Positions 20,685 through 24,297 of a stretch of 58,855 nucleotides of DNA are shown one piece after another; the stretch's first letter is position 1, and every line of letters begins with the position of its first letter. The notes beneath the pieces were generated by a model. That model was not told the origin of the DNA. It ran no database searches and saw only the letters and a list, made by a program, of their open reading frames with translations. The DNA is from Sphaerobacteraceae bacterium (GTDB lineage Bacteria; Chloroflexota; Chloroflexia; Thermomicrobiales; Thermomicrobiaceae), in NCBI GenBank assembly GCA_007695115.1, contig REEK01000121.1, positions 1 through 58,855 on the forward strand, given 5' to 3'. A program made the translations under genes and the position numbers.

Positions 20685-20866
20685 GATCTGCCCTTCCACT
20701 GGTCAGGGAACCAGCACTTGTCCATGTTCAATGGCCACTTGAAGTGTGCGACGTGAGCAAGTGTTGGGTCTATAGCGTTTGGGTACCAGTTTGCGTATCC
20801 ACTTATCCCAGTACAACCGGACGGTACGCGAGTACCTGGATGGGGCTCTGGTCATCTGAGGAGCAG
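20685..20866. other. Intergenic region upstream of the small membrane protein
   Basis: About 180 bp that should contain the promoter of the small membrane protein gene. I see no credible ORF, RNA structure or repeat. Confidence 0.3.
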
Positions 20867-20901
20867 AAACGGCCGGGCAGCATGCGCTGCGCCGGCCGTT
20901 T
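20867..20901. terminator. Terminator downstream of osmC
   Basis: AAACGGCCGG-GCAGC (20867-20881) pairs with GCTGC-CCGGCCGTTT (to 20901) around ATGC, with one bulged G. It begins 25 bp past the osmC stop on the minus strand, and the stem ends in a T/A run, as expected for an intrinsic terminator. Confidence 0.75.
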
Positions 20902-20925
20902 ACCTGTGCGGATAAGTGTCGTGAA

Positions 20926-21369
20926 CTAGCCTTCGAGGGTGGCGGTTACGGAGATCTCCGCACCGTGGCGAACCAGGTTGGAGATCGGGCAGCCTTGCTC
21001 GGCCTGCAAGGCCAGACTTTCGAACCCGGACTGATCGAGGCCCGGCACCTTGCCCAGCACGGTGAGGTCGACCTTTGTGACCTTCGGGCCGCCGTCAACC
21101 ATGTCAAGGGTGCAAACGGCGTCGACCTTCAACTGCTCTGGGCCGTGGCCGGCCTGGCCGAGAACGTTGGAAAACGCCATCGCGTAGCAGCTTGCGTGCG
21201 CTGCAGCGATCAATTCTTCCGGGCTGGTATTGCCACCGGCCTCCTCGACCCGGGCTGGCCAGCTGACCGGCAGCTCGGCGGCTCCACTAGTCTCCAGCTT
21301 CAGCGTACCCTTGCCATCCGCCAGTCCACCGTTCCAGACAACGCTCGCGTTACGTTCTGCCATCGGCAT
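20926..21369 (-). CDS. osmC: OsmC-family organic hydroperoxide reductase
   Basis: 147 residues. The two redox cysteines are both present: C61 in AAAHASCYAMAFSN and C127 in AEQGCPISNLV. Order and spacing fit OsmC/Ohr, which reduces organic hydroperoxides and is recycled by a lipoylated or thiol partner. Start ATG 21369 (alternative 21363) has GGAAGG upstream. It follows the Sec peroxiredoxin-like gene on the same strand, 76 bp away, so two peroxide-defence genes sit together. Here both active residues are Cys, so it is not a selenoprotein. Confidence 0.92.
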   Translation of the reverse strand: MPMAERNASVVWNGGLADGKGTLKLETSGAAELPVSWPARVEEAGGNTSPEELIAAAHASCYAMAFSNVLGQAGHGPEQLKVDAVCTLDMVDGGPKVTKVDLTVLGKVPGLDQSGFESLALQAEQGCPISNLVRHGAEISVTATLEG

Positions 21370-21445
21370 GGTTCTGTACCTTCCCTGTTCGTGTCATTTA
21401 GCGTCAATTGACGTTACTTTCGTTGTTCTTGCAGATTATCTGCCA

Positions 21446-21934
21446 TCAGGATAGCTGTCGAACGATCTCCGGAATTTCCGTGGTAACCGGCCTGTCCCGA
21501 GAGCCCGTACCAACGTACCGGTAAAGGATCTCGCGTTGCGGTCCCAGAATGTAGACCGTCGGTCGGCAGATCTGTCGATTCTTTGGCTCGTCATCGTGAA
21601 AGATGCCGAGTTCGTGAATCGACTTGCAGTTCGGGTCAGAGAATACCCCATAGGGGAGTTCAAGCCGCTTCTTCAGATCCCGGCAGGAATCGAACGAATC
21701 GCTGGAGATCGCGATGATCTCCGCATCTTCGGCGGTGGTGGCTTCGTAGATGTCGGCGAACTCGACGAGTTGCCCCCGACACGGTGGTCACCAGTGTCCA
21801 CGAAAGAAGATGACGACCAGCCTGGATCCGGGAAGTTCATCGAGCGTTACCGGATCGCCCTGATCGGTCAGAACGCTCAGATGACCGATGCGGTCTCCGA
21901 GGTCTGGTCCGTCGATTTCGAGTCCAAAACGCAC
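21446..21934 (-). CDS. Peroxiredoxin-like thioredoxin-fold selenoprotein (UxxC)
   Basis: 162 residues when TGA at 21788-21790 is read as selenocysteine (residue 49). The sequence runs RLVVIFFRGHW-U-PPCRGQLVEFADIY, then AEIIAISSDSFDSC, LPYGVFSDPNC, RPTVYILGPQREILYRYVG and ends EIPEIVRQLS. It is the AhpC/TSA-like family whose usual motif is FxRGxWCPxC, so Sec replaces the peroxidatic/redox Cys and the resolving Cys is kept two residues later. GTG at 21934 has GAGAGGAA 6 bp upstream. It starts 21 bp after the M20 dipeptidase stop, so the two are probably an operon. No single ATG/GTG-to-stop frame covers it. Expected role: peroxide or thiol-disulfide redox in the cytoplasm. Confidence 0.92.
21751..21781 (-). 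promoter_or_regulatory. Candidate SECIS hairpin of the Sec peroxiredoxin-like gene
   Basis: In the mRNA, 7-37 nt after the UGA, UGUCGG pairs with CCGACA. Inside, AACUC pairs with GAGUU around the loop GUC, 22-24 nt after the UGA. Distance and a G first in the loop fit bacterial SECIS rules, but it lacks the GGUC of the other elements. Confidence 0.65.
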
Positions 21935-21955
21935 AGTCGTTCCTCTCTGCTCGAA

Positions 21956-23326
21956 CTATCGAGCCAGCGCCTGAAGATACCGGCAATAGCCTTCTCGCAT
22001 CTTCTGGAAATCGACCAGTCGGTACGATTCGTTCGGTGCGTGCATGCCGTTTTCCGGCAGGCCCCAGGAGAAGAAGACCATGTCCGAGCCGAGCTCGCGC
22101 TGGAAGAGCTCCGCCACCGGTACGGTGCCGCCGACTCGGGTAACCAGCACGTCCTTGTCGTACATGTCCTCCAGGACTTCCATCGCCGTCTTGAGTCCCG
22201 GATGTTCCCGGCTGATGCTGAATGGGAACGCCTTGCCCTGGGTTGGTTCAACGGTGACCGTGGCACCTGGCGGGCAGTGCTTCTGGCAGTGGGCGTCGAT
22301 GAGCTTCACGATCTCTTCCGGGTTCTGATCCGGAACCAGCCGGCAGGTGATCTTCAGATGGGCTTCGTTTGGCGTCACGGTTTTGACGCCCTCGCCCTGG
22401 AATCCACCCCAGACCCCGTTCATGTCGAGCGTCGGGCGTGCCCAGGCGCGTTCGTTGGGGGTATAGCCTGCTTCGCCTTTGAGTTCGGAGACGCCGACCA
22501 TTTCCTTATAGGCATCCTCGTTGTACGGAACGGCGGCGATGTCTTCTTTGTCGCCGTCGGTCAGGTCCACGACGTGATCGTAGAAGCCGTCGATGGCGAT
22601 CTTGTGGTTCTCATCGTGGAATGTGGCGGCCAGTTCGATCAGCGACTGCACCGCGTTGGGCACGTTGGCGCCGTGGACCCCGGAGTGCAGATCGGTGGCG
22701 GCCGTCTTCAGATTCACCTGGCAGGCACCGAGGCCCTTGCTGGAGATGGTCACCGATGGTTGATCGGCGGCGTGCATGCCGCCATCCGCCGAGATGACGA
22801 AGTCACAGCTGAGTTTGTCTTTGTACTGCTGAATCACTGGACCCATCGACGGTGAGCCGATCTCTTCTTCACCTTCGAAGAAGATTTTGACGTTGACTGG
22901 CGGCTGGCCATCGGTCTTGTAGAGCGCTTCGATCGCCTTGACCGTTGCGTAGGAGTTGCCCTTGTCGTCCGAGGCACCGCGGGCGTAAAGACGGCCGTCG
23001 CGCTCGGTTGGTTCGAACGGGGGCGTTTCCCAGAGTTCGAGAGGATCCGGCGGCTGGACATCGTAGTGTCCATAGATCATCACCGTTGGCTGGTTGTCAT
23101 CGACATGCCAGTGGGCGAAGACGATTGGATTGCGATCCGTGGGGATCAGTTCTACCTCCGGGAACCCGGCATCCTTCAGTTTGGCGGCTACCCAGTCAGC
23201 CGCTGCCCGGACATCGGCATTGTGATCTGGAAGGGCACTGATGCTGGGAATTCGCAGGTATTCTTTGAGCTCTTCGACGTGGGAATCGTAGTTTTCGCGC
23301 AGGTATGCGCGCCATTCAAACGACAC
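21956..23326 (-). CDS. M20-family metallopeptidase (dipeptidase)
   Basis: 456 residues from GTG at 23326 (AAAGGGACC upstream); the longer open frame to 23515 crosses a hairpin and has no family similarity. It shows M20 zinc-peptidase motifs: MIYGHYDVQPPD (zinc His and Asp), LYARGASDDKGN (bridging Asp), IFFEGEEEIGSP (catalytic Glu pair), a dimerisation domain, and ENGMHAPNESYRL (C-terminal zinc His). This is the CNDP/dipeptidase-type M20 group; no signal peptide, so cytoplasmic. It probably hydrolyses dipeptides. It lies upstream of the Sec peroxiredoxin gene and 63 bp downstream of the DapA-like gene. Confidence 0.93.
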   Translation of the reverse strand: MSFEWRAYLRENYDSHVEELKEYLRIPSISALPDHNADVRAAADWVAAKLKDAGFPEVELIPTDRNPIVFAHWHVDDNQPTVMIYGHYDVQPPDPLELWETPPFEPTERDGRLYARGASDDKGNSYATVKAIEALYKTDGQPPVNVKIFFEGEEEIGSPSMGPVIQQYKDKLSCDFVISADGGMHAADQPSVTISSKGLGACQVNLKTAATDLHSGVHGANVPNAVQSLIELAATFHDENHKIAIDGFYDHVVDLTDGDKEDIAAVPYNEDAYKEMVGVSELKGEAGYTPNERAWARPTLDMNGVWGGFQGEGVKTVTPNEAHLKITCRLVPDQNPEEIVKLIDAHCQKHCPPGATVTVEPTQGKAFPFSISREHPGLKTAMEVLEDMYDKDVLVTRVGGTVPVAELFQRELGSDMVFFSWGLPENGMHAPNESYRLVDFQKMREGYCRYLQALAR

Positions 23327-23347
23327 GAAGCGGTCCCTTTCATGAGG

Positions 23348-23373
23348 CAGTGCGCGGCATACGCCGCGCACTG
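23348..23373. repeat. Perfect inverted repeat between the DapA-like and dipeptidase genes
   Basis: CAGTGCGCGGC (23348-23358), loop ATAC, GCCGCGCACTG (23363-23373). It lies in the 63-bp gap of a same-strand pair and has no T tract on either side. It could be a leaky terminator or an mRNA processing site. Confidence 0.6.
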
Positions 23374-23388
23374 AGGAGATGCTGAATT

Positions 23389-24297
23389 CTAGAGTACGCC
23401 GAGGGCGTTGAGGCCCTTGCGGGTGCGTTCCATCTGATCGGAAGTGAGCCACTGCAGTGGGTGGGTCATATACCCGCCACAGAGACCACGGAGAACGTGT
23501 GGAGCCTTGTAGCAAGCCGGGCCAGGTCCGATCTTGCAGACATCGACGACCTGCGTCAGCACGCGCTGTCGATCGGCTGCCTTGGCGAAATCGCCCGCTT
23601 TATAGGCATCGAAGATCTCGCGCTCAAGGGCCGAGGCTGCGTTCACGGTTCCACCGATGATGCCGTGTCCGCCGATCATCAGGTTGCCGAACAGGGTGCC
23701 ATCGGCACCGGTGAACAGGGTGAAACCTGGAGCCTGTTTGGCGACACGAGCGTAGTGGGTATAGCCGACATAGTTGCCGCTGCTGTCCTTGATTCCCATG
23801 ATGTTGCGGTGCTGGGCGAGCTTCTCGAGTGCCGCTGGCGAGATGGTGACCTTTGTGGTCTGCGGGATGTTGTACATCATGATCGGCAGCGGGCTCTCGT
23901 CAGCCAGGTGCTCGTAGAATTCGATCACGCCCTGGTCATCGAGGTTGTAATAGAAGGGAGGCGGAACCAGTGCCGCGACGACACCCGGCTTATCCATCTT
24001 CTTGAGATCTTCGATGATGTCGACCGCAACCGTTCCAGCCGCACCGGTCATGATCACGCCCGGGTTCTCGCGCGCAGCGTTCGCTTCGAGGACGACCTCG
24101 AGAACTTCCAGCCGCTGGTCACGGCGAAGGCCGTTGCATTCGCCGGTTGTGCCGAGGATCGACAGCCCGTGGCAGCCGTTATCGAGCAGGTTGTTGACGA
24201 TGTTCTTCAAGCCGTCATGATCGACCTCTCGCTCAGCGGTGAGCGCGGTCGACATTGCGGCGTAAATGCCTTCGTAGACCTCTTTGGTGTCCGACAC
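23389..24297 (-). CDS. DapA-like class I aldolase / N-acetylneuraminate lyase family
   Basis: 302 residues from GTG at 24297 with GGGAGG 5 bp upstream. DHDPS/NAL-family TIM barrel: GTTGE (about 50-54) binds the pyruvyl carboxylate, Tyr142 is in IMMYNIPQTT, and Schiff-base Lys170 is in IMGIKDSSGN. It then runs ALEREIFDAYKAGDFAKA. The family includes dihydrodipicolinate synthase and several aldolases/dehydratases acting on 2-oxo acids. With no lysine genes nearby, a catabolic aldolase is as likely as DapA. The 3' hairpin separates it from the dipeptidase. Confidence 0.88.
   Translation of the reverse strand: MSDTKEVYEGIYAAMSTALTAEREVDHDGLKNIVNNLLDNGCHGLSILGTTGECNGLRRDQRLEVLEVVLEANAARENPGVIMTGAAGTVAVDIIEDLKKMDKPGVVAALVPPPFYYNLDDQGVIEFYEHLADESPLPIMMYNIPQTTKVTISPAALEKLAQHRNIMGIKDSSGNYVGYTHYARVAKQAPGFTLFTGADGTLFGNLMIGGHGIIGGTVNAASALEREIFDAYKAGDFAKAADRQRVLTQVVDVCKIGPGPACYKAPHVLRGLCGGYMTHPLQWLTSDQMERTRKGLNALGVL

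Follow-up and report, generated by a model that had tools for sequence, protein, structure and literature searches.

The question raised by this locus is whether a UGA codon that interrupts a small reading frame between an M20 dipeptidase gene and osmC is read as selenocysteine (Sec), and, if so, what kind of protein would be made and whether it has any functional tie with its neighbors. The window, that is, the whole stretch of 58,855 nucleotides that was analyzed, belongs to the genome designated G000, and G001 to G004 are congeners of this source genome. The features concerned are collected in Table 1. The positions, the 21-bp gap and the osmC neighbor given in a preliminary description were all correct, to which we add the assignment to the minus strand.

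Table 1 Features of the locus, in window positions, with the evidence on which each assignment is based.
Feature	Positions	Strand	Evidence
Predicted Sec-containing Prx-like thiol oxidoreductase gene, 162 aa	21446–21934	−	TGA=U translation; PF00578; orthologues
In-frame UGA, predicted Sec, residue 49, first position of UPPC	21788–21790	−	TGA in orthologues; Cys homologues
Cys52 codon, predicted Sec partner in UxxC	21779–21781	−	Alignments; PrxQ/Bcp peroxidatic Cys column
Candidate SECIS hairpin, GGCAACTCGTCGAGTTCGCC core, loop GUC	21755–21774	−	Folds; shuffles; Sec versus Cys comparison
M20 dipeptidase, PRK08201 (start placed at 23326, inside a 519-aa ORF)	21956–23326	−	Domain matches; orthologues; nearest solved relatives CNDP2, Sso-CP2 and DUG1
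osmC, TIGR03562 OsmC family, ordinary Cys protein	20926–21369	−	Domain matches

The gene starts with GTG at 21934, preceded by the stretch AGAGAGGA, and stops with TGA at 21448-21446. When TGA was translated as U, positions 21934-21449 gave 162 residues with a single in-frame UGA in the context FFRGHW-U-PPCRGQL, the N-terminal part reading VRFGLEIDGPDLGDRIGHLSVLTDQGDPVTLDELPGSRLVVIFFRGHWUPPCRGQLVEF... The Pfam AhpC-TSA domain (PF00578) covered residues 14-139 of this read-through frame and spanned the UGA (2.2e-23; 83 bits against a Pfam cut-off of 26). Standard annotation would truncate or drop UxxC Prx-like Sec genes, and here it would split the gene in two. The dipeptidase stop (21958-21956) lies 21 bp upstream of the Sec gene, osmC begins 76 bp 3′ of it at 21369, and no promoter-like site was found in 20800-23600. 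The palindrome TAGCGTCAATTGACGTTA (window 21399-21416) between the Sec gene and osmC, the core of which is kept in G002, is a possible operator or a chance occurrence. A further Sec at the second UGA (21448-21446) was also considered and rejected: G004 ends two codons beyond it, so that the extended reading is not conserved, and in the short stretch after it most codon differences between G000 and G002 are non-synonymous.

The interrupting codon is likewise TGA in G002, G003 and G004, where protein identity is 97, 59 and 40%, respectively, the G003 contig ending inside the gene. Given that the same codon occurs in three congeneric assemblies, the UGA is not a sequencing error, and a misread TGC or TGT is effectively excluded. 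Distant homologues from the order and the phylum carry mostly UxxC, several CxxC and a few UxxU; a pattern-based count gave 25 UxxC, 8 CxxC and 2 UxxU rows, the 25 including two loci fetched twice and a few further Sec rows having escaped the pattern. As is expected of a selenoprotein gene, the column aligned with Sec is a redox Cys in homologues (L017, L019, L027, L029-L031, L040 and L094), and the UGA is conserved among orthologues. Between G000 and G002 the gene shows 11 synonymous and 5 non-synonymous codon changes, with 0 at second positions, and dN/dS was about 0.16 before the UGA (0.009/0.057) and about 0.11 after it (0.016/0.147); purifying selection acts on either side of this codon. 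SelA (524 bits), SelB (361 bits), SelD (367 bits) and tRNA-Sec(UCA) (74.7 bits) are all present in the genome, and SelD, the gene of which has its own in-frame TGA (L102, G000 contig C39:27511-28437), is probably itself a selenoprotein.

Were the UGA a true stop, the gene would be a decaying pseudogene or the base an assembly error. Nothing favors such an explanation except that in-frame UGA codons are rare in general, and we give it practically no chance against a UGA shared with other assemblies down to 40% identity, the purifying selection 3′ of it and a full Sec machinery. Very probably, this is a selenoprotein gene in which the UGA is read as Sec to give a Prx-fold product with a UxxC center. 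The frame, the conservation of the UGA and the machinery were established computationally, and we infer that the ribosome would decode UGA 21790-21788 as Sec by means of the SelA, SelB, SelD and tRNA-Sec of this genome. The Sec that the preliminary description placed here is strongly supported, as is its view of a Prx-like protein with Sec first in a CPxC-type motif.

A candidate SECIS hairpin with GU in its loop lies 21 nt 3′ of the UGA in G000 and G002, and the four congeneric genomes G000 and G002 to G004 carry CAACTCGT(C/T/G)(G/A)AGTT 3′ of the UGA, which forms this hairpin. The G000 fold was stronger than 98% of 1000 codon-shuffled versions encoding the same peptide (p=0.018), the synonymous-shuffle p for G002 was 0.07, and the hairpin was weak and not exceptional in G003 and G004 (p of 0.46 and 0.56). 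The mean z of the fold was -1.33 in 21 Sec homologues versus -0.15 in 8 Cys homologues (Mann-Whitney p=0.008, an optimistic value because the sequences are related). The upper stem is largely forced by the amino acids QLVEF. No SECIS match was obtained from Rfam, the SECIS_1 (RF00031) search being silent on its controls too, and the Rfam scan of 21400-22000 returned a chance match only. On this moderate evidence, drawn from sequence and folding, the hairpin is likely a SECIS element, and, lying just 3′ of the UGA, it would probably guide Sec insertion.

To describe the product, an AlphaFold model was built from eight aligned sequences (pLDDT 86.8). The best solved matches of this predicted model were PrxQ/Bcp peroxiredoxins, with ResA-type reductases ranking lower in the Foldseek list, and a Z of 20.7 to Bcp4 (3hjp; VIA Z, 153 residues) identifies the predicted fold as that of a peroxiredoxin. 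The active site is UPPC, a UxxC motif in which Cys52 is invariant. In a profile alignment with 2cx3 and 2ywn, Cys52 fell in the peroxidatic Cys column and Sec49 took the place of the S/T of S/TxxC. In place of the Prx motif PxxxT/SxxC the protein has RGHWUPPC, with R45 for Pro and U49 for Thr, and the column of the active-site Prx Arg (KRAVFIV in 2cx3) holds Pro in most members, a Pro at this place being the cis-Pro of thioredoxin-like reductases. The earlier peroxiredoxin-like label holds, but a peroxidase is only one possible reading, as the canonical active-site residues Pro, Thr and Arg are all replaced. The protein thus seems to combine a peroxiredoxin fold with an active site of thioredoxin type, in agreement with the published name Prx-like thiol:disulfide oxidoreductase. 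Since the signature has changed from PxxxTxxC to RxxxUxxC and the Prx Arg to Pro, the Sec protein may serve as a thiol-disulfide reductase and not as a peroxidase.

The same selenoprotein could still be a genuine peroxidase, with H2O2 or organic hydroperoxides reduced by Sec49 and its gene forming an oxidative-stress cluster together with osmC. This would agree with the peroxiredoxin/PrxQ fold, the membership in the AhpC-TSA family and the position of osmC, which follows at the same 76 bp in G002 and is also the next gene in G004; it sits poorly with RxxxUxxC and the thioredoxin-type Pro in the Arg column, and the adjacency of osmC is seen only in this genus. We consider it a serious possibility, though we lean slightly against it. 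Whichever substrate applies, we infer the chemistry from the computationally predicted fold and motif. The product would be a presumably cytosolic, peroxiredoxin-fold protein with a thioredoxin-type UxxC center, in which Sec49 would most likely be the nucleophile attacking a peroxide or a disulfide. Cys52, possibly Cys85, would then resolve Sec49 as a selenenylsulfide, which thioredoxin or another thiol would reduce; six of the eight sequences in the alignment have Cys85, a possible second resolving residue.

The conservation of gene order, which had been suggested as a check, proved partial. The order dipeptidase, Sec gene, osmC is found in G000, G002 and G004, and its first two members in G003; it is absent from G001 and from other genera with readable flanks. 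Although 98% complete and with SelB present, G001 has no Sec gene here, its dipeptidase gene and osmC being 104 bp apart. In the dipeptidase tree, G004 lay outside the other four (100/99) and G001 beside G003 (82/87), a topology that makes loss of the Sec gene in G001 the simplest history; the gene was probably lost there. The dipeptidase occurs at >40% identity in most searched genomes of the family and the order, and it is followed by genes other than the Sec gene and osmC in those other genera of which the flanks were readable. Given that the dipeptidase has other neighbors elsewhere, the pairing is young and local. The placement of the Sec gene beside the dipeptidase seems to be a genus-level accident, and the dipeptidase gene and osmC are most likely just neighbors, perhaps co-transcribed. 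Within the genus, the Sec gene evolves much faster than the dipeptidase gene: identity in G003 and G004 (L053 and L054) is 59 and 40% for the Sec protein and 87 and 80% for the dipeptidase, and OsmC identity in G004 is 60%.

The preliminary description had also speculated that the dipeptidase might concern gamma-glutamyl or other small thiols. The closest solved relatives of the dipeptidase are CNDP2, a Sulfolobus carboxypeptidase, a beta-Ala-His dipeptidase and DUG1. CNDP2 and DUG1 can cleave Cys-Gly, and through its relationship to these two the small-thiol idea is not absurd: the M20 dipeptidase would release Cys, Cys-Gly or some other small thiol, which would serve as the reductant of the selenoprotein. 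Besides this kinship, one can point to the 21-bp spacing, to the pair in four of five congeneric genomes and to eleven matches in G000 to the gamma-glutamyltranspeptidase family (PF01019), seemingly a large set, which fits general peptide scavenging equally well. Against such coupling, the pair was found in this one genus alone, the dipeptidase is kept without the Sec gene across the family and the order, G001 has the two flanking genes but lacks the Sec gene, and a GCS2-type search found no GCS2 ligase in the genome; we regard the coupling as very improbable, and the link is not supported. A narrower version, in which a genus-specific module has the thiol from the CNDP2/DUG1-like dipeptidase directly reduce the Sec Prx-like enzyme while OsmC handles organic hydroperoxides, appears a shade more improbable still. 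A literature search for a selenoprotein with a dipeptidase and a Prx-like protein found no report.

Other genes of related type were seen. G000 has a second in-frame-UGA Prx-like gene (MLRGLWUPVCRGHL, L021:1501-1782, contig C106:8899-9180), which adjoins an isoaspartyl-peptidase-like gene and belongs to a family-wide type (L039, L041-L043, L048-L050). In a neighboring family of the order, peroxiredoxin-like genes have two UGAs in a UxxU motif (WUPTURLYL; L032:1501-1953, L037:1501-1926, L038:1501-1950); their proteins are related to SelL models, under the cut-off, and may constitute an additional subfamily, possibly with a diselenide. A plasmid tblastn gave no match, and a scan of viral contigs gave no relative with a pattern that used Cys codons and would miss Sec versions. 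Only three selenoproteins were recorded for Chloroflexi in an early survey (PMC1794560). With the present gene, a Chloroflexota lineage gains a well-supported selenoprotein, UxxC Prx-like selenoproteins are frequent in this order, and the fast divergence together with the apparent clean loss within one genus offers a natural example, on a small scale, of how selenoproteins turn over.

Compared with known systems, the top NCBIfam model for the Sec protein was SelL/SelL-related (NF040769; 46.4 bits, E 3.3e-12), but this score is far under the cut-off of 120 and SelL has UxxU where the Sec protein has UxxC, which places it outside SelL. It shares with PrxQ/Bcp proteins (Bcp4 3hjp, Aeropyrum PrxQ 2cx3) the fold, the length and the position of Cys52, and differs from them by Sec in place of the Thr/Ser of T/SxxC and by the absence of the active-site Prx Pro and Arg. 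With PrxU of the Eubacterium acidaminophilum type it has in common a Sec within a peroxiredoxin fold, whereas its motif is UxxC, not TxxU, with Sec three residues earlier, so that it does not belong to PrxU; NF040737 (PrxU) was absent among its NCBIfam matches. In the Sargasso Sea set, Prx-like proteins with UxxC or UxxU were treated as separate from the TxxU peroxiredoxins (PMC1088965), Prx-like selenoproteins are abundant in GOS (PMC2398784), and the ‘Prx-like thiol:disulfide oxidoreductase’ is a PF00578 selenoprotein family with UxxC/UxxU (PMC13188914, PMC9312934). Compared with other members of that family, the present protein forms a divergent, Chloroflexota-type branch (its best homologues outside the genus have about 30-36% identity in the aligned part) and has an M20 dipeptidase neighbor. 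With its AhpC-TSA domain, Sec first in UxxC and common Cys homologues, it joins the known Prx-like thiol:disulfide oxidoreductase selenoproteins.
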